Both the position numbers and the translations under genes were made by a program. The notes beneath the pieces were generated by a model. It made no database searches. It saw nothing but the letters and a program-made list of their open reading frames with translations, and was not told the origin of the DNA. Shown here piece after piece: positions 622-49,612 of a DNA stretch of 64,000 nt (the stretch's first letter is position 1; each line of letters starts with the position of its first letter). The stretch comes from Candidatus Gastranaerophilales bacterium (lineage in GTDB: Bacteria > Cyanobacteriota > Vampirovibrionia > Gastranaerophilales > Gastranaerophilaceae), in assembly GCA_947625305.1 (NCBI GenBank), contig CANQNW010000005.1:1-64000 (forward strand), written 5' to 3'.

Positions 622-3600
622 TTATTGTTTTTCTTTCAATATCCAGTTATATAATGGTTTACCAATTATAGGTATATATGCGAAGCTGCTCTTTTTACCC
701 GAAAGCACTCTTGTTGCAACAGGCGCAACTGAAGGTGTAAAGAAATTTACTACTGCTTTGCCTAAACCTCCCTTGCCTGCATCAGCAAAGAAGAACCTAT
801 TAATAATAAATGTAGGAATTAAATTATCTATCATACTTTCAAATATATTTATATCCCTGTTAGAGAGAAGATCTTTTAGTGCGTCTATAGGCACACCAAA
901 CAGCCATAATAACATTTGAAGCCTTATTAAATTTTTAAAACCATTAACAACTTGTTTTTTGTTTTTATTCATAATACCTTGTTGAATATTATTTGTTACA
1001 TCTTGCCTTGCTATATCAAGTGCTTTTATACCGTATGTTTTTAAAGTGTAAAATAGTTTCATAAAACCGCCACCGCTTTGATATAATTCCGTAACCTGAT
1101 CTTCTGATATTGGTTGAATATCTGCAAGTGAATGATAGGCAAAAATAATCGTATCGTCTGTTATTTTGCCTTCAGCTAAATCTTTTTTAGCAGCTTCCCA
1201 ATTATCGCCATATATTCTTTTTAATTTTGCGTTAAAATCTGCGTTGTTTGATTTTGCCAATTTTTGAGCATTTAATAAAGAGGTTTGTATAATTGTGTTT
1301 TTGCCAAGCCCGTCTATTGCGTTAAGTCCGATTATTTGAAATTGTTTTTTTAACCACTTTGAAATCTTTGAAGTATCTCCGAATTCATAAGCTAAATCGT
1401 TTATTCCTAAGTCTTCCATAGATATATCGAAAGGCTTTTTGAGACCCTTGAAAGTATCCGAAAAGCCATATTTATAAACCGAAAAAGCAAGGTCGCCAAA
1501 CTGTGTGATTGCGTTTGTAATATCATTCAAAGTCGTAATATATGTAAGGTCTTTTATCATTTTAATTGGTTCACATACTCTGCTTGCATTAAATCTTGCT
1601 ACAAGCATTTCTCTTATAAGTTTTTCATCTTTTGCATATATTTCACCTTTTGCCGCAAGCGAATTTACAAGCGCACCTATACTGTCTTCGACATTTTCAG
1701 AACTTCCGATTATTTTGGTAATTTCTTCTGAAGTTTCCGTAATTTCTTCTTTAAGGCGTTTTATGACTGCCCCCTTAACTTGATATGCGTTAGCTTCATT
1801 TACCCATTCTATTTGACCTTCTAAGCGCGCTTTTTGAGCCTGAAGTCTGCTTTTATATTGTTTCATTTCTTCGTCTAAGTCTTCTCTGTTTTCAAGTTCT
1901 TCAAGCTTTATTTCAATAGGCGAGAGTTCATATTTAAGCCTTGTTAATTCTTTTGCTTTTGCTACATTAGGGTATCTGTCTTTTACTTCGTCAAGCGTTT
2001 TTTTCTTGCGCTTGATTCTTGCTCGAAGTTTACCTACTTCTTTATACTCACTTCCAAAGAATTTTCTTGCTTCTATGACTTTTCTTGAATTGCTTATATA
2101 ATTTATTAATGCCGGTTCAAAGGTTTCATAAAATTGATTAAAGTCACCGTCAAGTTCATCTATTCTTCTTTCAAATTTTAAACTTGCATTTCTTGATAAA
2201 AGAATATTATTTTTTCCAAAGCCTCTAATATGATTATTGATAAATTTTGCCCTGTCTTCTACACTCCAAAACTGGCTATTGTCTGCTTCTGCAAGATCTC
2301 TCAATACCATACTTATTTTGGCGTCTTCTAACTTTATTACTTGATTAATTACATCTTGCTGCTCTTTTCTTGCAAGCGCTTCTATATATTCAATGTATTT
2401 TTCTGAAAGATCATTTTTTACAAGTCTTGGAAAATAATTATCAAGATAGCCTACATCTATTCCGACTTCAAGCGCACTATTATAAATATCTTCCAAAATT
2501 TCTCTTATTTTATTAAATTCTTCAGTGAAGCCATATTTATTCGCAATTATTCTTACCATATGTTCATCACGATTTTTTAATGCTAAATCGAAAGTCAGGT
2601 AATCTTCTTTGCTTGCTTGTTTCATAGCTTCAGTTTTTTTAATAAAGTCAGCAGCTGCGTTAAGGTCTTTTCCTGTTATCAGACTTAATTGTGCAGTATG
2701 GTTTCTTAATTTGTCTCTTAATTCAGGTGATATTTTACCTAAGCGAGTTTCTAAAGGAATAAATAATTTATCATACCAATTACTGAATTTTTGCCCGAAC
2801 TCATATAATCCCTTTTTTAATTTGTATTGAGGATTATTTGTAATGTTTTCAAGCTCAATACTTTTTGCATAATTATATTGATACTTTGGCAGCACTTCGC
2901 GCTCGTATTCTTCATCAGTTGTAAATACCCTTTCAAATAGTTTTATTGTATCATCAGACAAGTTGATATTAAGGTCTTTTACAGAATTATATACTTGTCT
3001 TAACCAGTCTTTAAAATTTTGGAAAACTCTTAATAAGGTTTTTGACGGCGCAGAACCTTCCATTAAATATGCTTCAAAGCCGCGTGCGAATCTTTCGTGA
3101 AAATCGACCATTTCTTCATAGGAATATTCGACACCTTCTTTCATTCCAAAAACTCTATAAACTTCAGACAATTCTCTTTGAGCGCGTTTATTCCCACCCT
3201 TAGCAAGCGTGTCTAAAGAATATAAATAATAATGCCCCAGCTCGTGGCATATAGTTGAAGCGTCGCCGTTTTCAAGAATATCAATTATTGCGGTACCGTT
3301 TTCATCTATTCTGAATTGTCCGCGTGGCGCTTCTTCTTCGCCTTGATAAAATTTATTTAAAATATTTATAGCTTTATCATCAAAGATTACATAGCATCTG
3401 CCATCTTGTTTACCTTCGTAAGTGATACCTTTAATTCCGTAATTATTTAAAAATTCAGAAGCAAGTTTTTGAGGATCTTGCCATTCATTTTCTTTATATC
3501 CAAAATTTCTTAATTTCTGATTTTCAGACTCTTGTTTTAATAGGAAATTTTTAACGAGCTGTTTGTATAAATCTTTTCCTGTTGGAGAAGATTTTTTTAA

Positions 3601-6600
3601 TTCATCTTTTAACCAATCGTTTTCATTTAAAATTTTGTTGACTATTTTTTGTACATTTTCATTTTGCTTGTTTAATGGTTCTTGCTCATCAAGCAGAACA
3701 TCAGCTTCGGGAATATCAACTTCAAAAAGTTGTCCTTCGGTTTTAAATGTTCTTTGCGGATAACCGTAATCATCCAATATTTCTTTTTGTTGATAATAAA
3801 AATCTAATTGTTTTTGATTTTCTTTATTATTTTTTTGGTTTTCCAACTTTTCAATATTATCAGATATTTCAAGCCATACATCATCAAAAATTGCATCTTC
3901 TGATTTTCCGGTTCCGTCATAAAATTTAATTAAAAGATCTTTTTCAAAATCTTTTAAATCCGTAGTGTTATTTTTTATTTCTACTTTATTTTTTTTGTCA
4001 TTAAAAATTAAAGTATAATCTTTCCCTTTATAATTCCAAATATTTCTGTTTTCATCAGTTCCGGTGCTACTTAAATTTTTTCTATATTCTTCTGAAACCT
4101 CTTTATTTTTAGCTAAATATACGCCATAGCCGTGAGTCATTGCCCCTTCGCCTGAAAAGGCATAAGATAAATCAAATTTATCAAAATCTCTTGGCCCACC
4201 GTGATATGCTGGTTGATTAAAAACTATTCCTTGATTATATCCATTTCCTCGCCCGTCGGATCGTGCTTCCAATCTGTCCGACCTTTGAGCGTTACTTTCT
4301 TGTCGAAGCGCCCCTTGAACAAGTTGCCCGATTTCTTCGTCTTCAATGTGTTGGGGTTTTTCCCCGTACTTAACGTCTGTCGAAACTGCTTCATAGGTCT
4401 TAAATAGTCCTTTCTCTTTCATTATAACATAATTTTTTAATGGATTGTACCCCACTTCATTTACAATATAATCAAGCGGTACAAGCCTTCCTGTTTCTCT
4501 GTATCTGCTTACGGCTCTATCTACTGATTTTTCAATAGGTAAATATACAAGTCTTAAATGTATATCGTATCCTGCTTCAGCAAGAACATTATATTTTTTC
4601 ATTATGGCTCTTTCGCTTTTACCTACAATAGGCAGCAAAATATTGTCGTTGTTTTCAACAGCGACTTCAAATACTTCATTTGCTATTAATTGGCTTTCTT
4701 CGTGAACCTGATCTGCTCGTTTGCCTTCGCTCTCTATAAACTCCGGTATGCGTTCTTTTGCCATATCAGAATCAATAATAAGACAGCCCGTTTCATCTGC
4801 TAAAGGATTTGCAAAAGATGATTTGCCGCTTGCCGGTGCGCCAATTACAATATATGCCTGTTTTTCTTTTTTTGTTGCACCTTTGCCATACAGTTCTTGT
4901 GCAATATCTTCTCTTAATTTAATGCGTTCAGGGGTTGATATATTGATCGTTGAAGGCAATAAACCTTCTGCTTTTAATCTGTCCTGCTCGTCTAAATCTG
5001 CTGCAACATCAGGATATAAAGCACGCCAGTTTACTAAGTCTTCTGCTTTGGCTGATTGGTATAAACCTTTTGAATAAAATTCATCAGGTTTAATCAGAAT
5101 ATCCTCATTATCCGCAATATCATTAAGCGCAGTATATGGGTTTTCTTCATTATTGACAAACCTACTTATTGCAGTTTGATTATATGCAATTTCCTTTTTG
5201 ACACGACCAAAAATTTCATTAATCACATCAGGGGTTAGCATATACGCTTTAAATTCTTTGGCAGCTTCATCTAAAGATATTTCTTCATTTTTAACCATAG
5301 AAGCTAATTGCAAAGCTTTATCTGATATAGGGCCTTGCTTTGACGCAAGTTTCTCAATAAGATCTATTGCAACAGCAGCCTGCTGATTTATTCTTTCATT
5401 AGTTATTTTATCAAGCCTGTTCTTGCCCCTGCCGGTAATTCTATTGTTATTGCGTAATAATCCGCTAAATATTTTTTTATCATTTTTCAAAGATTTTACA
5501 GCTTTATCTACAATTTGTATTTTTTCAATAGCCGTAGTTTGAAAAATTTCTTGCGTTCCGAATAAATTTATTTGCTCTGATTTTACAGTATCAGCTGCTA
5601 ATACCTCACGCGCAAACATAGCGACTTGTTCTAAATTACTAAACTTTGCAATTCTTACGCCGTCTATTGCAGCAATTTGTTTGCTTTCATCTGTCCTTAT
5701 AATATCCGCTATTCGTGCTGCCTGCGCTGAAGTTATTTCACCGTTTACTACTTTTTGAAATGCGGTATCACCAAGCCTTGACAAAGCTATGCCGTCTTTT
5801 ACCATAGCAGAATTCGTAGGAATAGTTTTAGGTAAATTTTCATATCCTATTTCTTTTATAATCTTTGCTGTGTCTAATGCAGTACCGGAGTTTTCAGCTA
5901 TATTTTTTTGAGCTGCAAGAACTCTCATTTGTTCCGGTGTATATCCGTCTTGTTCTTTAAATAAATAACCTTTAAGGGTAATATTATCACCGCCCAATCT
6001 TTTTGCAAGACCTAAGCGCTGGTGTCCGTCAACGACATATTTTTTTCCGTCTTTTCTTTCATAAACGATAATGTCGCCTGCATACAAAGGATCAAATTCT
6101 TCAACGCCATTCATTCTATCTGTTACGCCGTTTTCGTCTGAATTATCTTTGTATTGAAAAGTTTTAGCGTCAGTTAAAAGTTCGCTCGGTTTAAATGATT
6201 GTTCTTGTCTTTCCTTAATTTCACTATCTATAAAACGTGTTTCATCATTAAGCTGCATTTTGTTGTTCTGATTTATTAAGACTTGCAGATTAGATTTTTT
6301 AAGAAGTTCCTTGCCTTCTTCACCAAATTTATCTGTAATAACATTATCAAGCTGCTGTACGAGTTGAGCAGAAGTGTCTGCCAGTTCAGAATTAGCGCCT
6401 TGTCGTTCCATTTCGCCTTTTATTCTTGTGTAAGATATACCGGCTTGTAGTGTTTTTGTTTTTTGGTTTGCCTGTTCTGTCGCGACTTCCGCAAGTGTAT
6501 CCATATTTTCTGTGAGAAAATCGTTGCGCTCATCAACTGTCATAGCTTCAGCTTCTTTTTTTGCAAGACTTGATTCTATACCTTGCTTTGTCTTTACCGC

Positions 6601-7761
6601 AGTAACTTGCGCAGTCGTGCCAATACCGCCCATTCCTATTGCAGAAATAGCACCAACAAGACCAGCCTGCATTATTTCATCAATCTTATCAGCTAAAGGT
6701 TTTGGCGCTACACCACGCATTTTTCTTGCTAAATTTTCATATATAAAATTGGTGTATTCTTGCGCCATTTCCGTTGAACCTTCTTCAATACCTGCCTTTG
6801 CAAGTTCTAAGGATAAAGCTGCTAATTGGCTTCTAAATGTTTTATCTTTTGCAAGTTCTTTAATTCCTTGCTTTCCAAACATATCTAATACTTTATCGCC
6901 GTTGGGTATTGCTTTTAAAATAGCTCCCAATCCTAAATATTCCAAAGAAGCATTAATAAGTCCAACCGACATAGCAAGATTGTCCATATCAGAATCACTT
7001 AATTTTTCTATCCCTTCATTTACAAATTCGTCATTCAACTGTTCTAATTCTTGACGCATAAAACCGGCTTCAAGTTCAAAACTTTTCTTTGCTACCGCTG
7101 TTCTTGCAAATAAACTTGCGCCAGTTCTCATACCTCCTTGTGCGCCGAGCCAAGCCCCTTGTGGTGTTTTTGTTGCAATAGCGCCACCAATAGCACCAAC
7201 AGCGAGGCCGCCAGCGCCCCCTATCGCCCCCAATATTCCTGCTTCTTTTCCAATACTATAAAGAATTGCTATTTGCTTCATTACTTCTGCATACAGCTGT
7301 TTAGCTCCGTTAGCTTTTTCAGATAATACAACAGGGCTGCCTTCTTCAAAATATTTGCCGTCGCTTGTTTGCAGAAATTTACTATATATTCCGTAGTTAT
7401 TAGCCTGATTATATCTTCCTTTACTATATGGGTTGTCAAGTTCATCTATTCTTGCTTTTTCAGCTTCAGATAAATCTTGTCCTGCTTTTCGTAGCAGCAT
7501 TCCTTTTGTTCTTAATTCAGCTGCTTCATTATCTTTTTTCTGTTCCATAAAAGCAGCAACGGGTACTTCTGTAACAAATTGCCAAGCAGATTTTAAATTA
7601 TCAAGAACAGTAGGCGCTTTATATTCTGATATAATAGGGCCGTTATATTCTTTTTGTATTTCTGTTGAAGCTGGTTCTTGTTCTAATTCAAAGCCTTCAG
7701 GTATTTCATTAGACAGATATTCAACTTCAAAGCCTTCAGGAAGCGCTAAATTGCTTGCCAT
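622..7761 (-). CDS. Giant polyvalent virion protein (ParB-like, zeta-like kinase, ART-like, zincin-like domains)
   Basis: This 2379-residue protein is most likely packaged in the virion and injected with the DNA. In order it shows: two PEGFE motifs in the first 30 residues; a Gly/Ala-rich hydrophobic stretch (about 165-215); a ParB/Srx-type segment with VVDGHQR (about 576-582); a P-loop GAPASGKSS (about 973) in a zeta-toxin-like kinase; an ADP-ribosyltransferase-like segment starting YHGGPRDFDKFDL (about 1185); a zinc-protease motif HELGH (about 1506); and a long helical C-terminus with hydrophobic segments after about 2290. This chain matches the polyvalent proteins described in phages and conjugative elements. 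The start overlaps the upstream gene by 16 bases. Domain names rest on motifs, not on a database search. Confidence 0.82.
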   Translation of the reverse strand: MASNLALPEGFEVEYLSNEIPEGFELEQEPASTEIQKEYNGPIISEYKAPTVLDNLKSAWQFVTEVPVAAFMEQKKDNEAAELRTKGMLLRKAGQDLSEAEKARIDELDNPYSKGRYNQANNYGIYSKFLQTSDGKYFEEGSPVVLSEKANGAKQLYAEVMKQIAILYSIGKEAGILGAIGGAGGLAVGAIGGAIATKTPQGAWLGAQGGMRTGASLFARTAVAKKSFELEAGFMRQELEQLNDEFVNEGIEKLSDSDMDNLAMSVGLINASLEYLGLGAILKAIPNGDKVLDMFGKQGIKELAKDKTFRSQLAALSLELAKAGIEEGSTEMAQEYTNFIYENLARKMRGVAPKPLADKIDEIMQAGLVGAISAIGMGGIGTTAQVTAVKTKQGIESSLAKKEAEAMTVDERNDFLTENMDTLAEVATEQANQKTKTLQAGISYTRIKGEMERQGANSELADTSAQLVQQLDNVITDKFGEEGKELLKKSNLQVLINQNNKMQLNDETRFIDSEIKERQEQSFKPSELLTDAKTFQYKDNSDENGVTDRMNGVEEFDPLYAGDIIVYERKDGKKYVVDGHQRLGLAKRLGGDNITLKGYLFKEQDGYTPEQMRVLAAQKNIAENSGTALDTAKIIKEIGYENLPKTIPTNSAMVKDGIALSRLGDTAFQKVVNGEITSAQAARIADIIRTDESKQIAAIDGVRIAKFSNLEQVAMFAREVLAADTVKSEQINLFGTQEIFQTTAIEKIQIVDKAVKSLKNDKKIFSGLLRNNNRITGRGKNRLDKITNERINQQAAVAIDLIEKLASKQGPISDKALQLASMVKNEEISLDEAAKEFKAYMLTPDVINEIFGRVKKEIAYNQTAISRFVNNEENPYTALNDIADNEDILIKPDEFYSKGLYQSAKAEDLVNWRALYPDVAADLDEQDRLKAEGLLPSTINISTPERIKLREDIAQELYGKGATKKEKQAYIVIGAPASGKSSFANPLADETGCLIIDSDMAKERIPEFIESEGKRADQVHEESQLIANEVFEVAVENNDNILLPIVGKSERAIMKKYNVLAEAGYDIHLRLVYLPIEKSVDRAVSRYRETGRLVPLDYIVNEVGYNPLKNYVIMKEKGLFKTYEAVSTDVKYGEKPQHIEDEEIGQLVQGALRQESNAQRSDRLEARSDGRGNGYNQGIVFNQPAYHGGPRDFDKFDLSYAFSGEGAMTHGYGVYLAKNKEVSEEYRKNLSSTGTDENRNIWNYKGKDYTLIFNDKKNKVEIKNNTTDLKDFEKDLLIKFYDGTGKSEDAIFDDVWLEISDNIEKLENQKNNKENQKQLDFYYQQKEILDDYGYPQRTFKTEGQLFEVDIPEADVLLDEQEPLNKQNENVQKIVNKILNENDWLKDELKKSSPTGKDLYKQLVKNFLLKQESENQKLRNFGYKENEWQDPQKLASEFLNNYGIKGITYEGKQDGRCYVIFDDKAINILNKFYQGEEEAPRGQFRIDENGTAIIDILENGDASTICHELGHYYLYSLDTLAKGGNKRAQRELSEVYRVFGMKEGVEYSYEEMVDFHERFARGFEAYLMEGSAPSKTLLRVFQNFKDWLRQVYNSVKDLNINLSDDTIKLFERVFTTDEEYEREVLPKYQYNYAKSIELENITNNPQYKLKKGLYEFGQKFSNWYDKLFIPLETRLGKISPELRDKLRNHTAQLSLITGKDLNAAADFIKKTEAMKQASKEDYLTFDLALKNRDEHMVRIIANKYGFTEEFNKIREILEDIYNSALEVGIDVGYLDNYFPRLVKNDLSEKYIEYIEALARKEQQDVINQVIKLEDAKISMVLRDLAEADNSQFWSVEDRAKFINNHIRGFGKNNILLSRNASLKFERRIDELDGDFNQFYETFEPALINYISNSRKVIEARKFFGSEYKEVGKLRARIKRKKKTLDEVKDRYPNVAKAKELTRLKYELSPIEIKLEELENREDLDEEMKQYKSRLQAQKARLEGQIEWVNEANAYQVKGAVIKRLKEEITETSEEITKIIGSSENVEDSIGALVNSLAAKGEIYAKDEKLIREMLVARFNASRVCEPIKMIKDLTYITTLNDITNAITQFGDLAFSVYKYGFSDTFKGLKKPFDISMEDLGINDLAYEFGDTSKISKWLKKQFQIIGLNAIDGLGKNTIIQTSLLNAQKLAKSNNADFNAKLKRIYGDNWEAAKKDLAEGKITDDTIIFAYHSLADIQPISEDQVTELYQSGGGFMKLFYTLKTYGIKALDIARQDVTNNIQQGIMNKNKKQVVNGFKNLIRLQMLLWLFGVPIDALKDLLSNRDINIFESMIDNLIPTFIINRFFFADAGKGGLGKAVVNFFTPSVAPVATRVLSGKKSSFAYIPIIGKPLYNWILKEKQ

Positions 7762-9989
7762 TTTCCACCTCTCATAATCATTCTTTCACCGGTTTTAGGA
7801 TTTCTTATAATTGTTCCTTCTGCATAAGCGCCGTTATTATTTTTAGCTTTTGTATCTTTACTTAAAGGATTTATGCTTTTTCCGTTTATAATTCTTTCGT
7901 AATGCAGACACGGCGCAGTAGCGTTCCCCGTACTTCCTGCTCTTCCGATAAAATCACCAGCGTTAATTGTTTGCCCCGTTTTTACAGAAAAGCTATTAGC
8001 GTGTGCATATCTATGTATGGTATCGCCACTTTGAATATCAATATAATTACCGTAGCCGGCGGGATCTTTTCCGATTTTTACTACTTTGCCACTTGCAAAA
8101 GCCATAATTCTTTCATTGTTACCATAAGAAAGATCTACCCCTTTATGATCTGAACTTGCACGACTGTTAGGCTTTTTTCGCGGCCCGTATAAACTTGTTA
8201 TTCTATGTCCGAACCACATATCACCAATCTGAGGCAGTCCACCTTGTTTAATTTCAATAGCGCTGCTTAATTCTTTGTTGTCGTCTTGAACAGTCTTAGA
8301 AACTCTTTGCGCCACTATTTTATATTTTTCTTCATCTGTTAGAGGGCTGCCTTTTGCTTTTTCGGCTGTATTAAAATCATTTATTACATTTCTCATAAAG
8401 CCCACTTGCTTATTCATTCCTTCAATATATAAATCAGACGTTTTACCGTCTTTGCTTTTATAAGCATAGTTTTGTGCAAATTCTTTTAGAGCGCTGTTTA
8501 TTTCGCCTTGCGTCAAATTTTTACCTTTTTTTAATTCAAGTTCTTTAATATAAGCATTAGCAGAATTTGTAAATGCTTTCGCTTTTTTATCGGTTCTTTC
8601 GCCCATATACCAAGAAGGGTCTGTATTCAGTTGCCCTTGTTTATTGTATGTATAGCCAAGCATTTTTAAACCGTCTTTTATGGCTTTGTCTTGATCTGTT
8701 AGTTGTGTAGGCGTCATATTTTTAATATCAATCTGCATTTTTTGAAAAGCTTTATAATCAGAATTAGAAAGCAGCGGTCTGTATTGCGTTAAGTTCATAC
8801 GCGCGAATCTTTGAGCGTCTGTATTTCTTAATTCGTAAAGTTCTAAATAAGCAGAATTATCTGTATCAATATCACCTTTATTAATAAGCTGATTTATTGC
8901 GCCTTGCGCATTATACCAATTTCTACCATTAAGCCCATAGGGTATATCGTCTTCTGAAGGTACTTGACCTGATTTCATTTTTTCAGCAATATTATCCCAC
9001 ATCTGATCCATAAGCTGATCTTGTTCGTGGTTGTCTATTCTTCGTTGCCTGTTATATAAAGAAGTTAGCCTATTTTCAACGGCTTGGCGTTCTTGCTCAT
9101 TTTCAATTTTATCTACTTGAGCGTATGCTCCTGCTTCATCTTCAGGATATAAACTGTATAATCTTTCTGCGGAAGATCTTGCAACATAATTTAATTCGTT
9201 ATTTCTTACAGCGCCTAAATATCTTGCTTGCGCGTCAGGCAATAACTCATCTTTATGCGCATTATAGTATTCAGTAGCTTTTAGGCTACCGTCTTGTAAG
9301 TAAGCATTTAATACTCCTGCGTGAAAATCGGAAGTAAATTTTGCAAGTTGTATCCTTGTTGTGTCGCCATCCCATTTAAGAAGTTTAGCTTTACTTAAAA
9401 GTGTAGCTCTACCATTCCCAAGCGCAATAGCCATATCGTCTTCATTATCTCTGTGTGTTACGGCTTTACTAATTGCAAGGTTTTGCGCTTCTTCAAGTGT
9501 TGCCATACCCCACGCGTGAGTTTGTTTCATTTCGTGCGCTTGTGCGCCTTGATAAAGCATATTCAATTTTCTAAGTTTAACAGATTCAGCAGCTTTAGCT
9601 CCCCTGCCCCAAGTCAAACCTAATTCTTGTTGTTTTTGATTTATTTTTTGTTCAATATTATTCATTACGCCCGTTGCACCGCTGTTCGGATCGTCAGGGT
9701 TTGCCATAGCGTCTTTTCCAAGTTTTGAATAATAACCATTTTCAGGATCTTGTAAATCCGTTCTTTCAAGAACATCAATGTAATTTGCAAGCTCTCTTGC
9801 ATTCATTTCTTGTATTTGATTATGCAAATTAATCATATTTTGAGTAAACCACGCAGAAGTTTCACCCAATTTTTCTGTTGCTCGTGCTATACTCACACCA
9901 AAAGCGTCAGGGTTTGTATTTGCTTTTAAATAGCCCGTAGGTTCGTGGCTATAATTAACTCTTTGTTCATATTGTGGAATTGCTACCAT
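7746..9989 (-). CDS. Internal virion protein with C-terminal M23/LytM peptidase domain
   Basis: The protein has 747 residues. The first 580 or so are helical and polar, like the large internal virion proteins of T7-type podoviruses. The end is a LytM/M23 fold: GHRITSLYGPR, the metal-binding HKGVD (residues 615-619), then the usual late Gly-rich strand. M23 enzymes cut peptide crosslinks in peptidoglycan, which fits local wall penetration at infection. One oddity is that the HxH motif reads P-C-L-H-Y-E (Cys694, His696), so the first His, normally catalytic, is Cys. Activity is therefore uncertain. ATG at 9989 has an AGGAGT ribosome site. It lies in the late operon between the gp14-like protein and the giant protein. 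Confidence 0.8.
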   Translation of the reverse strand: MVAIPQYEQRVNYSHEPTGYLKANTNPDAFGVSIARATEKLGETSAWFTQNMINLHNQIQEMNARELANYIDVLERTDLQDPENGYYSKLGKDAMANPDDPNSGATGVMNNIEQKINQKQQELGLTWGRGAKAAESVKLRKLNMLYQGAQAHEMKQTHAWGMATLEEAQNLAISKAVTHRDNEDDMAIALGNGRATLLSKAKLLKWDGDTTRIQLAKFTSDFHAGVLNAYLQDGSLKATEYYNAHKDELLPDAQARYLGAVRNNELNYVARSSAERLYSLYPEDEAGAYAQVDKIENEQERQAVENRLTSLYNRQRRIDNHEQDQLMDQMWDNIAEKMKSGQVPSEDDIPYGLNGRNWYNAQGAINQLINKGDIDTDNSAYLELYELRNTDAQRFARMNLTQYRPLLSNSDYKAFQKMQIDIKNMTPTQLTDQDKAIKDGLKMLGYTYNKQGQLNTDPSWYMGERTDKKAKAFTNSANAYIKELELKKGKNLTQGEINSALKEFAQNYAYKSKDGKTSDLYIEGMNKQVGFMRNVINDFNTAEKAKGSPLTDEEKYKIVAQRVSKTVQDDNKELSSAIEIKQGGLPQIGDMWFGHRITSLYGPRKKPNSRASSDHKGVDLSYGNNERIMAFASGKVVKIGKDPAGYGNYIDIQSGDTIHRYAHANSFSVKTGQTINAGDFIGRAGSTGNATAPCLHYERIINGKSINPLSKDTKAKNNNGAYAEGTIIRNPKTGERMIMRGGKWQAI

Positions 9990-9999
9990 TGTTACTCCT

Positions 10000-10698
10000 T
10001 TAAGCTATTTTATTAGGGTTTAATATTCCGCTGTTTGAAACATCAAAACCGCCACTTAATTTTAATCCCGATTGTGTTGCGCCTCCACCGAGTGAACCTA
10101 AGCCACCACCTAAAGAAGTAAATAAACTGCCGATTTGTCCGACCGTTTTTAAGCCACCGGCTACCGCGCTAATTGTTCCTGCTGTTCTTGCGTTTCTTGC
10201 TGATAATTGAGCTAAGTTTGCTTCATTTGCAAAGTTAGAAGCTTCAATTTCATAATTACGCGCTTTCTTTTCTGAATTATATTCAATAGTTAATGCGTCA
10301 AGTTCGCCAAGCATAGCGGTATCTTCAATTATGTCTAATGAAGTTCCATAACCAACATCAACACCATTTGCAGCCAAAGATACTTCTTGCTTTCCAATAG
10401 CTTGAAGTGTTGATATTCTTTGCCTGCGCGCTTCTTCTAAACCAAGCTGTCTTTCCATAGCAGCATTGTTCATAGCAATTTTTTGATTTTCTGCCGCTAC
10501 TCGTGCCTGATACCCATAAGCAGCAGCTTGCGCTTTCCCTGATTGGTAGCTTCCGACTGCGCCCAAAGCTGTTCCTGCTATTCCTGCCGCAGTTGCCGCG
10601 ACAGCTACACCACCTATTGCAGCTGCTGCGCCAGCCGATACAGAAGCTCCGACAGCGGCAGCTATGGAAGTTCCTATAATAGTAAAAAGTTCGCACAT
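10000..10698 (-). CDS. Internal virion protein, T7 gp14-like
   Basis: The protein has 232 residues. It starts with a long Ala/Gly hydrophobic segment (about 8-50) that could insert in a membrane. A helical, Gln/Ala-rich middle follows with motifs typical of podovirus internal core proteins (GYQARVAAENQ; AANGVDVGYGTS). The end is Gly-rich. Such proteins help form the channel that carries DNA through the envelope. The position between the gp13-like gene and the M23 protein matches T7 order (13-14-15-16). The start has a GGGGG/GGGAA ribosome site 5-9 bases upstream. The functional call is by length, composition and gene order. Confidence 0.75.
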   Translation of the reverse strand: MCELFTIIGTSIAAAVGASVSAGAAAAIGGVAVAATAAGIAGTALGAVGSYQSGKAQAAAYGYQARVAAENQKIAMNNAAMERQLGLEEARRQRISTLQAIGKQEVSLAANGVDVGYGTSLDIIEDTAMLGELDALTIEYNSEKKARNYEIEASNFANEANLAQLSARNARTAGTISAVAGGLKTVGQIGSLFTSLGGGLGSLGGGATQSGLKLSGGFDVSNSGILNPNKIA

Positions 10699-10701
10699 TG
10701 T

Positions 10702-11187
10702 TTATTCCCCCAGTCCTTTAACTTCTCTAAGACGGTAAAAAAATTCAAAACCTTCAGGAATAACAATGCCTTCAGGTTTAGGATTATCGAATTTATAATT
10801 AAATTTCTTTAGCCACCTTTTAGCAAGGCGGTTTTTTTCGTGAATAAAATTATAAGTTACCCAATATTTTTCATCAGCTTTTTTTAGTTCCACTTCAAAC
10901 TCTTTAAAAAAGCAGTGTATATGTTTTTTAATTTCATTGGTTGACAAAAGCCAAACAACGCCAACGCCGTCTTCATCACCTTTACAATGACATATACCAC
11001 CGACTAAAACGGGTGTATTATCTTTTTTACTTTTACCTAAGATAGTATCATTTTCAATTATATTTTTTAGTGCTTTTTCTTTCCAATTTTCTTCACCGTA
11101 TGCTACTATAACTTCGTACAGATCTTCCGGCCGTAAATTATCTAAAACATAGTTTATATCTTCAGCATTTTTATTCGCTCTGTACAT
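10702..11187 (-). CDS. T7 gp13-like protein (DUF2833, acetyltransferase-like)
   Basis: The protein has about 161 residues and a GNAT-like layout: a central strand GVVWLLSTNE, then YNFIHEKNRLAKRWLKKFNYKF, the pattern of phage DUF2833/gp13-like proteins. It is probably a minor virion or assembly protein; enzyme activity is unproven. I place the start at ATG 11187 because GAGG sits six bases before it. An in-frame ATG at 11199 would add four residues. The C-terminus contains IPEGFEFFYR, an echo of the PEGFE motif found in two other proteins of this phage. The gene overlaps the end of the tail nozzle gene. Confidence 0.65.
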   Translation of the reverse strand: MYRANKNAEDINYVLDNLRPEDLYEVIVAYGEENWKEKALKNIIENDTILGKSKKDNTPVLVGGICHCKGDEDGVGVVWLLSTNEIKKHIHCFFKEFEVELKKADEKYWVTYNFIHEKNRLAKRWLKKFNYKFDNPKPEGIVIPEGFEFFYRLREVKGLGE

Positions 11188-13468
11188 CTGTATCCTCATC
11201 TTCTATACCTACAACAGCGCTTATACTTGTTACGGTTAGCGGTAGTGGGTATGGCTGCTTTATTTTTATACTTGCGTCTTCTTTATAATTTGCAGTAGGA
11301 TACATTGTAATATCACCACTAAATAGCCAGCCTGCGTCATTTATACTATCAACGCTTCTTGCATTTTGGGTTTCCGAATTATCATCACCAATTATAAAAA
11401 AATCTTCTCTTGATTTTTCTACTTTTATATTTGCAGCTGTTATTATCTTTTTTAATCCGTGTGTATTTTCGCCCTCAATATTTAATGTTTCAAGCTCGAA
11501 AGTATAAGGAAGCCCGACAACTATTTTTTTTGAAGGGTTTTGAAGTGTAATAGAACCGTTTTTTACTACATCTGTATAAGCACCACCGTCAGCTAATATA
11601 GAAACGGTTTCACCTTCAAGATGAGATAAACCGCTTATATGACTTACTTCTGATTCAAACTCTGCTTTTAGTCCGCAATCAACAAAGAAGCCGTCTTGTG
11701 CATTATCTATGAGGCGTGAGTGCATACGTTCAATAAATCTTTTTTCTTCCCCGTTGATTATCCTTTTTATAACAAAATAAACTACATCTTCAAAGCCTTC
11801 TCTTATAACCGCAACGCTTTCAAATTTACCTTTTGTTTCGTGTCTATGCCAGCCAGCTACTTCTTGTTTTTTATTATAAGTTAGTGCATTTACTGTTCCG
11901 TCAGACATTACACACCATAAAATTCGATATGGCTCTTTAGAATAAGCCATATCTATAACTTGCTTATTTTCAAATAAATGGTTCGCAAATATTGTTAGTT
12001 CATCACCATTATAAGAATCTGATACATATTCATATCCAAGATCCCTAACAACAGAACCACCGGCTTGAACAAAAAGAACCATATTGCCCGATACGCAAGG
12101 CTGAACGTGAGAACAGCCGTAATAACTTTGTGGTACGCAAAGAGGTGGAGAAGCTGCTGAAAATGTTCCGTCTGATCCGTTCAATTTCCATTCGGCCCCC
12201 GAAGTTAAAACAATTAAATCGTTAAGACCTATTAAATGCCTAATTTCGTTTACTTCTCTTTCTGATATTTTGATGTTAATGCTATCTGAAGCATTTAAGG
12301 GCCTTGATATATTAAAGTTGTTATCCGTGCCGGTTTGTGATGTAACAAGAGTTTGAGGCGCATTTTTTAAGCAAGCAAATAATTTTCTTTGTTGAAAATA
12401 ATTTACACAAGAAGGATAATTATTTTTTTCAAAAGGGTTTCTTGCTATTGGTGCTGTTGATGATAAATCCGGTTCGATTTTATTATCTGTAAAACTTGTT
12501 TTTGCTGCTGTTCCAATAAAACCAAAAATACCGTTGACGCTTTTATAAACATTGTATTCAGTTGCGCCTTCTACTTCTTCCCACGATATAGTCATACTTT
12601 CCGAAGTAGTCCAGTAGCTTTCTATATGTCCTGTTGCTTTTGCTATTTCCGATCTTTCGCTTTCCTCGTATGTTTCTTCCATTATGGCTGTAACGACATA
12701 TTCGTATTCACGTGTGTTAGAACTCGTTTCACCTTTCCAAGAAGCTTCAATATTTTGAGGTGGGTTTATTTGTGGCGTTGGTATAATTTCATTTAAACCC
12801 CAATCATAATGACTTGTTCTTGATAATTCGCGCGGCAAATAATCTTTATGGCAAATTGTCAATACATCAGCGTTTTGCCCGTATTTCAACATAAATAAAT
12901 CTTCATTAAGGTATGGTGTTTCAGTCTCTACTATTTCCCCACGCTTAGCAATCTTTTCTTCGTCTTTATCTATACTTATTTGCTTTGTTTCTTTGTCTAT
13001 GCTCGTAACTACACCGTATTTTGTAATAAAATCTTTTTCAAGATAACAAATACTACCTTCTTCAATTTCAGCTTCAGTATAAACGATCTGATCGCCGAAA
13101 ATGTAAGAAAAAGTTTCTTCTTCAACTTCTTCATTTATAGAATATTCACCCTCATATTTAAGCCCGTAATTATCAGGGTATATTATTTGTCCTCCGTCTT
13201 TAATATACCTTGCGTATTTTTCCCCAAGCTCAATAATATAAGTTTGTTCAGTATTGAAAGAAAAAGGGATTATTCGCGTAGGTTTGCTGCTATCTTTTAC
13301 TTCGCAAACCAATTCAAGACCGGCTCTATTAGATATACAGCCTTCTGTCCTTACAAAACCATTTAATAGTTTTTTTAATCCATTACTATATTTTGCAAGA
13401 TCATTTCTTGCATATAAAGATGGCGACAATTCGCCGCCGGTAAAAGATTTTTGCGTTAATCTTGTCAT
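11171..13468 (-). CDS. Tail tubular protein B / tail nozzle (T7 gp12-like)
   Basis: The protein has 765 residues. The N-terminus (TRLTQKSFTGGELSPSLYAR) is the hallmark of podovirus tail tubular protein B and its relatives, as is the later LIVLTSGAEWKL region. The product forms the nozzle at the tip of the short tail. A fibronectin-like segment around residues 240-330 (tyrosine- and threonine-rich, ending in a YNVYKS motif) looks like an inserted Ig-like domain. It starts four bases after the adaptor gene and is translated from ATG 13468. The family call is strong; the inserted domain is inference. Confidence 0.88.
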   Translation of the reverse strand: MTRLTQKSFTGGELSPSLYARNDLAKYSNGLKKLLNGFVRTEGCISNRAGLELVCEVKDSSKPTRIIPFSFNTEQTYIIELGEKYARYIKDGGQIIYPDNYGLKYEGEYSINEEVEEETFSYIFGDQIVYTEAEIEEGSICYLEKDFITKYGVVTSIDKETKQISIDKDEEKIAKRGEIVETETPYLNEDLFMLKYGQNADVLTICHKDYLPRELSRTSHYDWGLNEIIPTPQINPPQNIEASWKGETSSNTREYEYVVTAIMEETYEESERSEIAKATGHIESYWTTSESMTISWEEVEGATEYNVYKSVNGIFGFIGTAAKTSFTDNKIEPDLSSTAPIARNPFEKNNYPSCVNYFQQRKLFACLKNAPQTLVTSQTGTDNNFNISRPLNASDSINIKISEREVNEIRHLIGLNDLIVLTSGAEWKLNGSDGTFSAASPPLCVPQSYYGCSHVQPCVSGNMVLFVQAGGSVVRDLGYEYVSDSYNGDELTIFANHLFENKQVIDMAYSKEPYRILWCVMSDGTVNALTYNKKQEVAGWHRHETKGKFESVAVIREGFEDVVYFVIKRIINGEEKRFIERMHSRLIDNAQDGFFVDCGLKAEFESEVSHISGLSHLEGETVSILADGGAYTDVVKNGSITLQNPSKKIVVGLPYTFELETLNIEGENTHGLKKIITAANIKVEKSREDFFIIGDDNSETQNARSVDSINDAGWLFSGDITMYPTANYKEDASIKIKQPYPLPLTVTSISAVVGIEDEDTDVQSE

Positions 13469-23703: not shown

Positions 23704-23786
23704 CAGATCCTGAATATGAAAATTATTTAAAAAAAGGCGGTGCTAAATGGTTACGCCCAATTTTAAGAGGTGAAACAAATGTCTAA
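23601..23786 (+). CDS. Phage GRREGAG-type small basic protein
   Basis: The protein has 61 residues. It begins MSEEYKGRGGRREGAGKPKG, a motif frequent in small phage proteins that may bind nucleic acid. A KARKISMTDPEYENYLKKGGAKWLR-like region follows. AAGGAAAC lies ahead of the ATG. It overlaps the previous gene by 103 bases, and both frames look coding, which is rare. Role unknown. Confidence 0.55.
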   Translation: MSEEYKGRGGRREGAGKPKGYRKELPVKARKISMTDPEYENYLKKGGAKWLRPILRGETNV

Positions 23787-24234
23787 CAAATTAATTATTC
23801 CACTTATGGTATCAATATTATTAAATTGCGCTTTAGGATATTATTTGCATATTACTAAAACAGATCTAAAAAATTCAGAAAATACCAGCCAGCATTATTA
23901 CAATGAACTAAACAAACAAAAACAGCAGCTTAAAGCTGACGCTATCCCTGAAGGTTTTGAAATCGAATATATCCCGAATAAAAAAGCGGTACATACAAAA
24001 TTCCCTTATATACCTATGCAGCCGCGCACATCTGAAGCTTACATACCAATTCAGGGTAATTGGGCTTCTACGCAGCCAGCTTATTATACGAACGAAAGAA
24101 CACTATCACCATATCAAAATAATTATGATCCAAATTTATATAGAGCCTCAAAAGCATTAGAAAATATAAATACAGACATAATGCTTGATTCTATGTTTGA
24201 AGGGCCTTATATGGTTTATCCATACCCGTATTAA
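23779..24234 (+). CDS. Membrane-anchored phage protein with a PEGFE motif
   Basis: From ATG 23779 the protein has 151 residues. I prefer this start over an upstream GTG because AGAGGTG lies eight bases before it. Residues 4-24 are one transmembrane helix. A coiled segment and then IPEGFEIEYIPN follow. The C-terminal half is rich in Tyr, Pro and Asn. The PEGFE word is shared with the giant virion protein and the gp13-like protein. A spanin-like or superinfection role is possible but unproven. The last four bases overlap the convergent repressor gene. Confidence 0.5.
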   Translation: MSNKLIIPLMVSILLNCALGYYLHITKTDLKNSENTSQHYYNELNKQKQQLKADAIPEGFEIEYIPNKKAVHTKFPYIPMQPRTSEAYIPIQGNWASTQPAYYTNERTLSPYQNNYDPNLYRASKALENINTDIMLDSMFEGPYMVYPYPY

Positions 24235-36774: not shown

Positions 36775-36828
36775 CAAATGGCTTAAATTTGATTGAATAT
36801 ACTCCATAATGTTAAAAAGCAGGTAATT

Positions 36829-38613
36829 ATGGCAAATATTCAAAAACATAATTTAAATTTCCGAATAGAAAAATTAAGAGTCGAAGCATTAGCAAAAATC
36901 GACCTGTTAAAATCATTTGAAAAATTTGAAACTAAATTTGAACACCGTTTGAACGCAGAAAAAATATTCCTTGAACTATACAATTCAGGCGAGTACTTAA
37001 AAGATATTTTTAAAATTTTGGGAAAAGTTTCAAAATCCTCATTGTATCGTTGGAATAAAACATACTCAGAATATGGAACAATTGAAAGTTTAATTCCAAA
37101 ATATAAATGCACAAGTATTCAAGAATATAATACGACTTTAACCCCTGAAATGATTGAACAATTTAAGAAATTTCTGTTTCTTCCAAACAGATTTAAGATT
37201 TCAAAAGCGATAAGTTTAACAAAATATTGTTTGGAGCAAAAAGGAATAGCAAATATTCCTGCGGACATTGCTTTCAGAAGATATGCCGATAAATATAAAT
37301 CTGTGCATTATGACGAATGGGTGTTTAAAAGAGATGGAGAAAAAGCACTAACTGACAAAGTTTTGCCATATATTCAAAGGGATATGTCAAAAATAGAAAT
37401 CGGAGAAGTTCTTGTTGCTGACGGTCACAATTTAAATTTTCAAGTTATTAACCCATTTACAGGTAAACCACAAAGAGCAACACTTGTCGGTTTCTTTGAT
37501 TGGAAGTCTGGCGCATTGGTCGGATATGAAATAATGATGTCTGAAAATACACAATGTATCGCAAGTGCTTTAAGATACGCAATATTAAATTTAGGAAAAA
37601 TTCCTAAATTTGTGTATCAAGATAATGGTAAAGCATTCAGAGCAAAATATTTTCAAAACTGTGATTTTGAAGAAAGCGGTTTTAACGGAGTTTATGCAAA
37701 TTTAGGTATTACTCCAATTTTTGCAAGAGTCAGAAATGCAAGAGCTAAAATTATAAAAAGATTTTTCTTAGAGTTTCAAGAAGAATTTGAGAAAATGATG
37801 CCGTCATATATTGGAACATCTATTCAGGATAAACCTGCAAGATTATTAAGGGGAGAGGAATTACACAAAGCACATTATCTTAAAACTACTGGCGGACAAA
37901 TTCCAACAATTCAACAAGTAATAAAGTGTATTGATTTTTGGCTAAACCACCACAATTCAAAACCATGCAGCAATGATAAATCAAGAACTATTAAAGAATG
38001 TTTGAACTCTGTTCATAAAGAATTTATAGACCGTTCAAAAATGAATTATTTAATGATGAAATCAGAACCTAAAACTATACTTAGAAACGGTATAAGATTT
38101 TTAGGTGAAAATTACTACCATGAAATATTATTTGGACTTCGGGAACAAGTCTATATTCGTTATTCTCTTTTTGACCTTACAAAAGTATATGTTTATTCCC
38201 TAAAAGGTGAATTTCTTTGTATTGCAAAACGAGTTGAAAAAACTCATCCACTAGCTAATTACACTGGCACAGTTAAGGATATGGAAGATTTTAAGCAGAA
38301 AATACAGAAGCAAACAAAATTGAAAAATAAAGAGATAAGGGAATTCAAAAAATATTTTGATATCGAATCAACAGGAATTTTAGAAATTCCAAAAGAACCT
38401 GTAAAAATTGAAGATTATAAAGAAATAAAGAAAAAACGAGAACGAAAGCAAACACTTCGGGAACAACAGATGAACAGGCCTTATTTTACTGACGATTTTC
38501 AAAAGTGTGAGTGGCTTATGGAACATGGTTGCACCTCACAGGAAGATAGGAAATTTTTATACGAATTTAAAAATAGCGAACAATACAAACTCTTATACGG
38601 AGATGATAACTGA
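36829..38613 (+). CDS. MuA/TnsB-like transposase, catalytic Glu apparently lost
   Basis: From ATG 36829 the protein has 594 residues (an upstream TTG lacks a ribosome site). An N-terminal helix-turn-helix (about 50-80; VSKSSLYRWNKTYSEYG) precedes the integrase core: Asp198 (LVADGHN) and Asp265 (YQDNGKAF). The third position, normally E in A-K-x-x-E-R-F-F, reads A-K-I-I-K-R-F-F (Lys310, codon AAA). A GAA to AAA change would explain this. The C-terminal Mu-type beta-barrel part (about 400-470) and a Lys-rich tail remain. DNA breakage should be lost unless another Glu (315) compensates. The ATPase gene follows directly. Confidence 0.82.
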   Translation: MANIQKHNLNFRIEKLRVEALAKIDLLKSFEKFETKFEHRLNAEKIFLELYNSGEYLKDIFKILGKVSKSSLYRWNKTYSEYGTIESLIPKYKCTSIQEYNTTLTPEMIEQFKKFLFLPNRFKISKAISLTKYCLEQKGIANIPADIAFRRYADKYKSVHYDEWVFKRDGEKALTDKVLPYIQRDMSKIEIGEVLVADGHNLNFQVINPFTGKPQRATLVGFFDWKSGALVGYEIMMSENTQCIASALRYAILNLGKIPKFVYQDNGKAFRAKYFQNCDFEESGFNGVYANLGITPIFARVRNARAKIIKRFFLEFQEEFEKMMPSYIGTSIQDKPARLLRGEELHKAHYLKTTGGQIPTIQQVIKCIDFWLNHHNSKPCSNDKSRTIKECLNSVHKEFIDRSKMNYLMMKSEPKTILRNGIRFLGENYYHEILFGLREQVYIRYSLFDLTKVYVYSLKGEFLCIAKRVEKTHPLANYTGTVKDMEDFKQKIQKQTKLKNKEIREFKKYFDIESTGILEIPKEPVKIEDYKEIKKKRERKQTLREQQMNRPYFTDDFQKCEWLMEHGCTSQEDRKFLYEFKNSEQYKLLYGDDN

Positions 38614-39344
38614 TGAAACAAGTATTTGTAAGAACAAAAAATGTCAAAAAATTTGTTTCTCTTATGGAAACCTTGAAAAATTTACCGCCAAACATTCCTA
38701 AACTTGCACTTGTTTATGGCAGTCACGGACTTGGCAAAACCAAAACTCTTATTTGGTGGGCGACTAAAAACGATGCAATTTACATTCGAGCTAATAACGA
38801 TATGACTCAAAATGGCTTATTAAAAGAAATTGTACTTGAACTAAATCAGCGACCATATCACGCAATGCAGGATAATTTGGATTTGATAATAGGACAGTTA
38901 AGATTCAATCCTAAAATTATCATTGTTGATGAAATTGATTATCTATTCAGCAAAAATGCGATAGAAATATTAAGGGATATTCACGATAACTCAGGAACTC
39001 TGATAGTTTTATCAGGAATGGGTAATGTTAATACAAAAATTGCTCGGTATAAACATTTTGAGGATAGGATTTACAAAAAATTGAAATTTGAACCGTATAA
39101 CGAATCAGATATAGAAGATATTTTAAATCAAATTACTGACTTATTCTTTGCTCCTGATGCTATTAAATATCTTGCCACTCGGACAAACCAGTTTAGAAAA
39201 ATTGTTCAGACATTAGACCAACTTGAAAAACAAGCCGAAACAAACGGCGTTGCCGAAATTACAGAAAATATAATCAAAGGAATAATTACAAATGAAAGAC
39301 AAAATATTAACCTTATGCCGAAGATTGAAAAAAAGTACGCTTGA
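38613..39344 (+). CDS. MuB/TnsC-like AAA+ ATPase
   Basis: The protein has 243 residues. Walker A is GSHGLGKT (36-43) and Walker B IIIVDEID (102-109), with sensor-like IVLSGMG after it. A small helical C-terminal domain (about 185-225) follows. In Mu and Tn7 this protein picks target DNA and activates the transposase. It overlaps the transposase stop by one base and the next gene by 53 bases. Confidence 0.85.
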   Translation: MKQVFVRTKNVKKFVSLMETLKNLPPNIPKLALVYGSHGLGKTKTLIWWATKNDAIYIRANNDMTQNGLLKEIVLELNQRPYHAMQDNLDLIIGQLRFNPKIIIVDEIDYLFSKNAIEILRDIHDNSGTLIVLSGMGNVNTKIARYKHFEDRIYKKLKFEPYNESDIEDILNQITDLFFAPDAIKYLATRTNQFRKIVQTLDQLEKQAETNGVAEITENIIKGIITNERQNINLMPKIEKKYA

Positions 39345-48271: not shown

Positions 48272-49612
48272 ATGCTTTTTATCATGGGAAATAATGAAAA
48301 TATATCAAAAGATATTGTTTTTATAAGCCATGCAACTCCTGAAGATAATGAAATTGCAATTTGGCTTGCATCTCGTCTTGAAAATGCAGGATACAATGTG
48401 TGGGTTGATAAAAATGAACTTACTGGTGGAGAAGAATTTTGGGATAACATACAGGATATATTAACGAATAAGACTGTAAAATTTATTAGCATAATATCAA
48501 ATTCATCAATTAATAAAAATGGTGTAAAAGATGAAATATCGTATGCTCTTGAATTAGAAAGAAAAAATAACTTAAGTGAATTTATCTTACCAATAAAAAT
48601 AGAAGAAAATGTTACTGTTCCTATAAATCTAGGTAGAAAAAATTATATCGATGATTTTAAAACAGATTGGGGAACTGGTCTTGAAAGAGTTTTAAATTTT
48701 TTAGATAAGAATAATGTTCCAAGAAATAATATTTCTAATTATAAAGATCTTGAGTTGGTACTCCGAAAAGATGTAGTAAAACTCGAAAAAGGAAATGAAA
48801 CTATAATGTCAAACCAATTCAAAATTACTTTGCCAGAATTTATATTTTTATACGAAAAAGACACAAATGCTAATGAATTACCTAGAACGCATGAGTATTA
48901 TGATTATCCGGTTAGAGAATTTGCAGGGAATTTGTTATCATTTTTTGAACTACAAAAAATTAACAGTATAATTGAAAGTCAACAATTAGTTTTAGTTGCA
49001 AAATATAAAACAGATAATTTTATTAATGAGCAATATAAGGAATATTCATATAATTCGAAAAAAGATGATATTGATAGAGTTTTTAAAACTTTAATTTCCA
49101 AAACTTTTGATATGCTATTTAAGAATAAAGGCTTAAAAAATATACAATGGAAACATACTTGTGATTGGTGGTTTCCAAGTAATTTAATACCGGACAATAA
49201 AATCTATTTTACAAATTACTATGATAAAAAAACATATAGAGTAATAACTGGCAAAAGTATACAGTATATATGGCATTTTTGTTTTAGATATCGAATACGA
49301 AGTAATGACAATTTTTATATTGAAATTTCACCAAGAACTATATATACAGATGATAAAGATATCGTTATTCCCAGTGATTCCAGGCTCAACAGGATAAGAA
49401 TCAGCAGAACAAAGACTTGGTATAATGAAAAATGGAGAGATTTATTGGTTGGATTTATGTATTGGTTAAATAATGGTAATGATATTGTTATAAATTGTGG
49501 TGACGATAATAGTTTAATCTGTTCTTGGAAGCCGGAATTTTTCAAATCGGAAATAAAAATTCCCGAAGATAAACTTAGAGATGATGACGGGGATATTCAA
49601 GATGGGCAGTAG
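48272..49612 (+). CDS. TIR-APAZ protein of a SPARTA defence system
   Basis: The protein has 446 residues. The TIR domain (about 10-130) shows FISHATPEDNEIA, then LTGGEEFWDNI with the NADase Glu (54/55), and FISIISNSS. The remaining 300 residues fit an APAZ domain, the partner surface for short Argonautes. When the pair senses invading guide/target nucleic acid, the TIR part destroys NAD+ and the cell dies or stops. A start at ATG 48287 is equally possible; no ribosome site is seen. The Argonaute gene overlaps its end by 11 bases. Confidence 0.88.
   Translation: MLFIMGNNENISKDIVFISHATPEDNEIAIWLASRLENAGYNVWVDKNELTGGEEFWDNIQDILTNKTVKFISIISNSSINKNGVKDEISYALELERKNNLSEFILPIKIEENVTVPINLGRKNYIDDFKTDWGTGLERVLNFLDKNNVPRNNISNYKDLELVLRKDVVKLEKGNETIMSNQFKITLPEFIFLYEKDTNANELPRTHEYYDYPVREFAGNLLSFFELQKINSIIESQQLVLVAKYKTDNFINEQYKEYSYNSKKDDIDRVFKTLISKTFDMLFKNKGLKNIQWKHTCDWWFPSNLIPDNKIYFTNYYDKKTYRVITGKSIQYIWHFCFRYRIRSNDNFYIEISPRTIYTDDKDIVIPSDSRLNRIRISRTKTWYNEKWRDLLVGFMYWLNNGNDIVINCGDDNSLICSWKPEFFKSEIKIPEDKLRDDDGDIQDGQ

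Follow-up and report, generated by a model that had tools for sequence, protein, structure and literature searches.

Why should one phage chain carry four unlike enzyme-like modules, and in what form would they act in the host? The question is raised by a single uninterrupted ATG frame of 2379 codons at positions 622-7761, minus strand, of the window (the whole 64,000-nucleotide stretch of Candidatus Gastranaerophilales bacterium contig CANQNW010000005.1 analysed here). A plus-strand reading of the same interval was rejected, since it contains stops throughout. Large multi-domain chains with ADP-ribosyltransferase (ART), zincin and ParB-type domains are known as phage polyvalent proteins, and the paper describing them proposes that the zincins release the other domains (Iyer et al., 2017; PMC5512222). 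A first-pass annotation of the window had reported ParB-like, zeta-kinase-like, ART-like and zincin-like modules in this chain, a claim borne out by profiles, folds and invariant motifs. It had missed the minus strand, the exchange of the ART cassette and a recurrent mark at the module borders.

Gene order and prophage context

The gene belongs to a block of virion genes transcribed from the minus strand, the relevant end of which reads as follows.

622..7761, minus strand: probable polyvalent ejection protein, 2379 aa, gp16 position (open frame, Pfam and PHROG matches)
7746..9989, minus strand: gp15-position protein with a C-terminal M23 peptidoglycan peptidase (PF01551, 1.1e-25)
10000..10698, minus strand: gp14-like internal virion protein (T7_gp14, below cut-off; phrog_418, 3.8e-22)
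10702..11199, minus strand: internal virion protein (phrog_308)

Contiguous genes on the same strand upstream of the frame encode terminase, portal (Head-tail_con, 8.5e-111) and a scaffold-like protein, followed in the same block by the major capsid protein (GP7, 6.7e-125) and tail proteins (phrog_394, phrog_376). The internal virion proteins phrog_308 and phrog_418 (gp14-like) and the gp15-position M23 protein come last. Because virion genes through the gp15-position gene precede it, the 2379-residue protein occupies the position of T7 gp16, and the T7-type gp14/gp15/gp16 order was recovered with Pfam and PHROG. Comparable orders are found in Bordetella phage BPP-1, Pseudomonas phage AF and Cobetia phage Carin1, and also in the methanogen-associated virus vir555; Caulobacter phage Jess A and Pseudomonas phage UFJF_PfDIW6 are laboratory phages whose layout is related. 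Encoding in the late virion-gene block is likewise typical of phage polyvalent proteins. We assign the chain and its modules to that class with high confidence; gene position and homology also make it quite probable, at a slightly lower grade, that the chain is ejected. The terms "virion protein" and "injected" in the first-pass annotation are supported by the position after the internal-virion, gp14-like and gp15-position genes and by an ART-like fold in a podovirus pre-ejectosome (below), and we infer both location and injection from gene order and homology. Action on the host just after entry, also named there, would be a further step of inference.

The prophage is a temperate podovirus, perhaps a transposing one. 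A Mu-type transposase (phrog_310) and a DNA transposition protein (phrog_296) are encoded at 36793-39344 (plus strand), near the podovirus virion block. Elsewhere in the window, at 48272-51125 (plus strand), a TIR-type gene is followed by a short Argonaute gene; by their matches to PADLOC class I TIR/pAgo models (4.5e-110 and 1.2e-195), the two are a SPARTA-like defence pair. Another contig of the same genome encodes a related prophage protein of 2492 aa (L004; G000:C7:631-8106), which has the N-terminal and zincin regions in common with the window protein and differs in its middle modules.

Modules of the chain and the ART slot

The features of the chain are given from N- to C-terminus, followed by a small protein encoded elsewhere in the window. 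Phi-x-Q denotes a Gln two positions after a hydrophobic or aromatic residue, with any residue between them, a pattern first seen in the linkers before ART and zincin.

7678..7743, minus strand: N-terminal tandem short motif LPEGFEVEY..IPEGFELE, aa 7-28 (within-protein repeat; shuffle p 0.005, the minimum)
6247..7635, minus strand: N-terminal domain with Gly-rich presumed membrane stretch, aa 43-505 (33% identity to the paralogue G000:C7)
5245..6201, minus strand: ParB-fold module, aa 521-839, with D578-G-H-Q-R582 (PHROG, alignment, fold match)
5056..5064, minus strand: Phi-x-Q border 1, LYQ902 then SA, between ParB and zeta (LYQ kept in four orthologues)
4411..4875, minus strand: zeta-toxin-like kinase module, aa 963-1117, P-loop GAPASGKS 974-981, D999 (Pfam, profile, fold)
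4213..4221, minus strand: Phi-x-Q border 2, FNQ1183 then PAYHGG, upstream edge of the ART slot (linker comparison)
3343..4212, minus strand: ART cassette, aa 1184-1473, with YHGG, GYGVYLAK and YVIFDDKAI (motifs, alignment, model; empty or different in orthologues)
3343..3351, minus strand: Phi-x-Q border 3, FYQ1473 then GEEEAPRG, between ART and zincin (linker comparison, model B)
2902..3324, minus strand: zincin-like metallopeptidase module, aa 1480-1620 (alignment, HExxH)
3232..3246, minus strand: HELGH, residues 1506-1510 (sequence, alignment)
625..2841, minus strand: C-terminal region, aa 1641-2379 (conserved along with the zincin in close relatives)
23770..24234, plus strand: small membrane-anchored protein with the N-terminal motif of the polyvalent protein, AIPEGFEIEYIPN (N-terminal membrane stretch)

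Many gp16-position proteins repeat a short peptide in roughly their first 50 residues. On shuffling, 34 of 73 non-redundant proteins reached p<=0.05, and for 21 p was at its minimum. The repeat is lineage-specific, its sequence varying among phages and recurring inside each protein (PEGFEVE/PEGFELE in the window, FDAAVAG twice in BPP-1, and NEYDAL, DFSGLPD or FGFVPDN elsewhere). The small membrane-anchored protein that carries the same motif is encoded outside the virion block; its homologues in the viral records L276 and L277 retain AIPEGFEIEYIPN, and that of L276 also has FDSSTA, similar to the motif that L007 carries instead at its N-terminus. As a guess, the repeat might serve as a virion docking address.

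The ParB module gave a PHROG ParB-like match (E 4.5e-4), and Foldseek matched its model to Noc (7nfu, E 2.6e-5) and ParB-CDP (6sdk, 3.3e-4). Its DGHQR motif is invariant across 44 aligned sequences. A ParB/Srx fold with a conserved Arg is present, as in DdrB-like ParB; no significant profile match to P1 DdrB was obtained, and Tyr607, the candidate for the DdrB-like Tyr helix, is not conserved in the A6 consensus. The zeta module has the hallmarks of zeta toxins, namely the Pfam model (PF06414, E 2.6e-18) and a fold with P-loop, Asp and Arg. It matched the PDB zeta toxin by profile (1.3e-13) and fold (E 7.5e-7), and comparison of its model with 1gvn gave Z 16.9. Polynucleotide kinases are next (Z about 15), so its substrate may or may not be UDP-N-acetylglucosamine, which zeta toxins phosphorylate. 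Another 23 frames encode a stand-alone ParB-zeta protein of about 1100 aa in which zincin was undetected (e.g. L224, L250, L249), which suggests that the two modules work together. ART stands before zincin in 40 frames. The window protein thus unites two pairs that recur elsewhere.

Scans of the single protein against Pfam and NCBIfam found no ART or zincin match, PF18760 (ART-PolyVal) included; 36 of 68 aligned rows match that family. The HYD-type ART residues, one each in strands 1 (H), 2 (Y) and 5 (D), are present in YHGG, GYGVYLA and YVIFDD and are invariant in three divergent sequences. Model B, which covers the ART-zincin region (pLDDT 85.9), gave no Foldseek match against PDB at E<=0.001. 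The ART match came from a second structural comparison, in which the best hit was chain B of the cyanophage A4 pre-ejectosome (its residues 1418-1604; 166 aligned, Z 11.5, rmsd 4.6), followed by PARP domains (Z 8-9). For the zincin, H1506-E1507-x-x-H1510 and E1556 are invariant over 14 divergent sequences, HExxH is intact in 113 of 113 homologous matches, and model B places HExxH and E1556 in separate helices. Relatives of the zincin gave weak SprT-like and M78 matches. A PDB profile search with the zincin alignment returned weak, unrelated-looking matches, and the structural matches listed for model B span model residues 1-297 and do not include the zincin, which speaks neither for nor against a zincin fold. 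Because no solved zincin was matched, this fold is assigned from motif and helix layout. Among the folds predicted by the first-pass annotation, structural counterparts were therefore obtained for ParB (Noc/ParB), zeta (zeta toxin) and ART (the cyanophage A4 chain, PARP), with the zincin left unmatched.

When codons were compared with those of four orthologues, ParB had a dN/dS of about 0.03-0.08, zeta one of 0.10-0.15 and zincin one of 0.05-0.06, values that are rough because dS is near saturation; ART, lacking or different in the orthologues, lay outside the comparison. Such purifying selection indicates that the ParB, zeta and zincin modules are not decaying.

The orthologues are four viral contigs (L005-L008) and one metagenome-assembled genome (Elusimicrobia bacterium RGIG6610, sheep rumen), and they are 76-87% identical to the window protein on either side of the ART region. 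That region is absent from L006, L007 and L274, a different ART fills the slot in L005 and L008, and the window is a third state. The edges are sharp, marked by "...FNQ" to the left (L007 excepted) and by EEAPRGQFRIDENG to the right. The slot is almost certainly an exchangeable cassette, and it shows module swapping directly. Within our sample, all four modules occur together only in the window protein, L005 and L008; zeta and ART were both undetected in the more distant relatives L039 and L200. The three natural states are undescribed as far as the searchable literature goes (most subscription papers lay outside the search). Empty, ART-1 and ART-2 versions of an otherwise closely similar protein offer a ready comparison for the role of the ART cassette.

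A glutamine mark at module borders

The strict pattern [LFY][FYNHDE]Q was counted in a window 50-20 residues before HExxH, with the expectation taken from other windows of the same proteins. It was found in 52 of 76 non-redundant relatives against 5.5 expected. When Q was swapped for other residues the counts were near background, the next best being D (13 vs 5.5). With pattern and window fixed, a fresh scan that used different search peptides, and from which near-copies of the first set were removed, gave 26 of 38 against 2.7 expected (p 1.4e-21). In zincins of prophages from other genomes of the same host family, YFQ, YYQ or LFQ lies slightly further upstream. The mark is absent before the zincin in L039, L201, L041 and L014 among others. 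P1 DdrB, checked as an outside test, has no Phi-x-Q before its zincin, though it is reported as processed.

The mark before ART depends on the zincin as well. A Gln was present in 12 of 13 zincin-containing proteins and in 0 of 18 that lack zincin (Fisher 9e-8), counting instances that match a Q-free search pattern and setting aside those found with a Q-containing ART pattern. Among ART domains of the canonical type, the C-terminus is a Q in all 9 proteins with zincin and in neither of the 2 without. The contrast is in part due to common descent, as seen in the ART tree, on which the zincin state switches four times or more, with Q following in nearly every row. L126 and L080, for example, have a zincin and the Q inside an otherwise zincin-less ART clade; the exceptions are L133, which has the Q but in which no zincin was found, and L031, which has a zincin with the Q one position off. 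A mark upstream of ParB is not general (2 of 6 zincin-containing proteins). Overall density rises only slightly (2.98 per 1000 aa in zincin proteins vs 1.7-2.2), so the signal is positional. The linkers around the mark evolve fast; the mark itself is mostly kept. Inside model B, pLDDT falls below 50 in a single segment, which begins at Q1473, at border 3.

Such a zincin-linked mark is the sequence trace expected if zincins release domains as proposed by Iyer et al. (PMC5512222). No border signature or named cleavage site came up in that paper under cleavage, linker or glutamine, and a literature search for known cleavage sites in polyvalent proteins returned none (most subscription papers lay outside it). 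Within the same reach of the literature, the zincin-linked border mark is undescribed.

Processing, alternatives and known systems

The best overall explanation, to which we give an even chance, is a polyvalent ejection protein in the gp16 position, processed by its zincin at Phi-x-Q borders and built of swappable cassettes. Its central element, that Phi-x-Q is the processing site of the chain's own zincin, falls a shade below that. Together with the gp14- and gp15-position proteins, the chain would form part of the virion's inner core and, on infection, would enter the cell through the tail along with the DNA. The zincin, as the marks and their dependence on it suggest, would cut at LYQ902, FNQ1183 and FYQ1473. 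This would free a zeta-type kinase (about 31 kDa) and an ADP-ribosyltransferase (about 34 kDa), separating them from the membrane and ParB portion on one side and the zincin and C-terminal portion on the other (computed pieces, if all three sites are cut: 99, 31.5, 34.2 and 104 kDa). Judging from their families, the freed ART may modify host proteins or other macromolecules using NAD+, the kinase may phosphorylate a nucleotide-sugar or other substrate, and ParB may be an NTP-binding or DNA-acting module. Closure by the same kind of border mark could make each module swappable as a cassette. A Pro directly follows Q in FNQ/PAYHGG, which counts against processing. Pro at P1' is unusual for most proteases, and the scissile bond may therefore not directly follow Q. 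Also weighing against processing are the missing mark in P1 DdrB and in some relatives, the packaging of N4 virion RNA polymerase uncut, the share of common descent in the zincin contrast and the unmatched zincin fold.

The strongest competing account, which we hold doubtful though by no means negligible, is that the chain reaches the host and functions in one piece, Phi-x-Q being a structural cap or a relic of module joining and the zincin acting on host proteins. In model B, the border 3 mark overlaps the closing part of the final ART strand, which would fit a cap. The N4 virion RNA polymerase, with its HExxH domain, is packaged unprocessed, and zincins can be effectors, according to PMC5512222. 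On the other side, one mark closes unrelated types of module and is absent from ART proteins without zincin, and its persistence amid fast-evolving linkers is not expected of a mere relic.

Co-occurrence does not show catalysis, and cleavage of phage head proteins by a separate prohead protease is common; the mark could thus be the site of another protease, of host or phage, which the zincin merely accompanies. We consider this improbable, since no prohead protease was recognised among the scanned virion-block genes with Pfam and PHROG, and the mark tracks the zincin within the same chain in many phages. Least probable is that the prophage is decaying and the protein a leftover that is no longer delivered. 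The prophage locus does lie at the contig edge, with genes beyond position 1 cut off, but the frame is intact, its measurable modules (ParB, zeta, zincin) are under purifying selection, and the same layout is found in the viral contigs L005-L008.

Processing by the internal zincin thus remains our preferred reading. More tentatively, it can be extended to a class of phage ejection proteins resembling viral polyproteins, with effector cassettes, a common Phi-x-Q site and zincin cutting during or after delivery. If so, the chain is a cargo train as well as a swappable cassette array, and processing would explain how effectors with unlike targets are held in one chain and exchanged among phages. 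The replicated zincin-linked signature makes the 2017 processing proposal testable at named positions, and Phi-x-Q offers a simple way to locate module borders in giant phage proteins that lack annotation.

The T7 gp14-gp15-gp16 ejectosome resembles the window locus in gene order and position. T7 gp16 has a transglycosylase and, to our knowledge, no ParB, zeta, ART or zincin module. The peptidoglycan-cutting M23 domain of the window is on the gp15-position protein, whereas the T7 hydrolase is on gp16; movement of a peptidoglycan hydrolase domain between gp16 and gp15 homologues has been described (PMC8954989). One segment of the cyanophage A4 pre-ejectosome (PDB 9k3a) has the predicted fold of the window ART, at 15% identity over 166 residues. 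Bbp10 of Bordetella phage BPP-1 has the same gene position (bbp14-13-12-11-10), a related zincin (33% identity) and the repeated N-terminal FDAAVAG; it differs in its other middle modules, with no ParB or zeta match found. Halovirus HCTV-5 gp114 is annotated with a zeta toxin and a ParB nuclease domain in one protein, as in the window chain, but it is 1293 aa long, has zeta near the N-terminus (residues 123-325) and gave no zincin match. Zeta-like kinases are recorded in conjugative elements and MuF fusions in PMC5512222. Compared with the polyvalent proteins of Iyer et al., the window chain agrees in its late virion-gene block position and in uniting unlike enzyme domains, and differs in placing a zeta kinase between ParB and ART.
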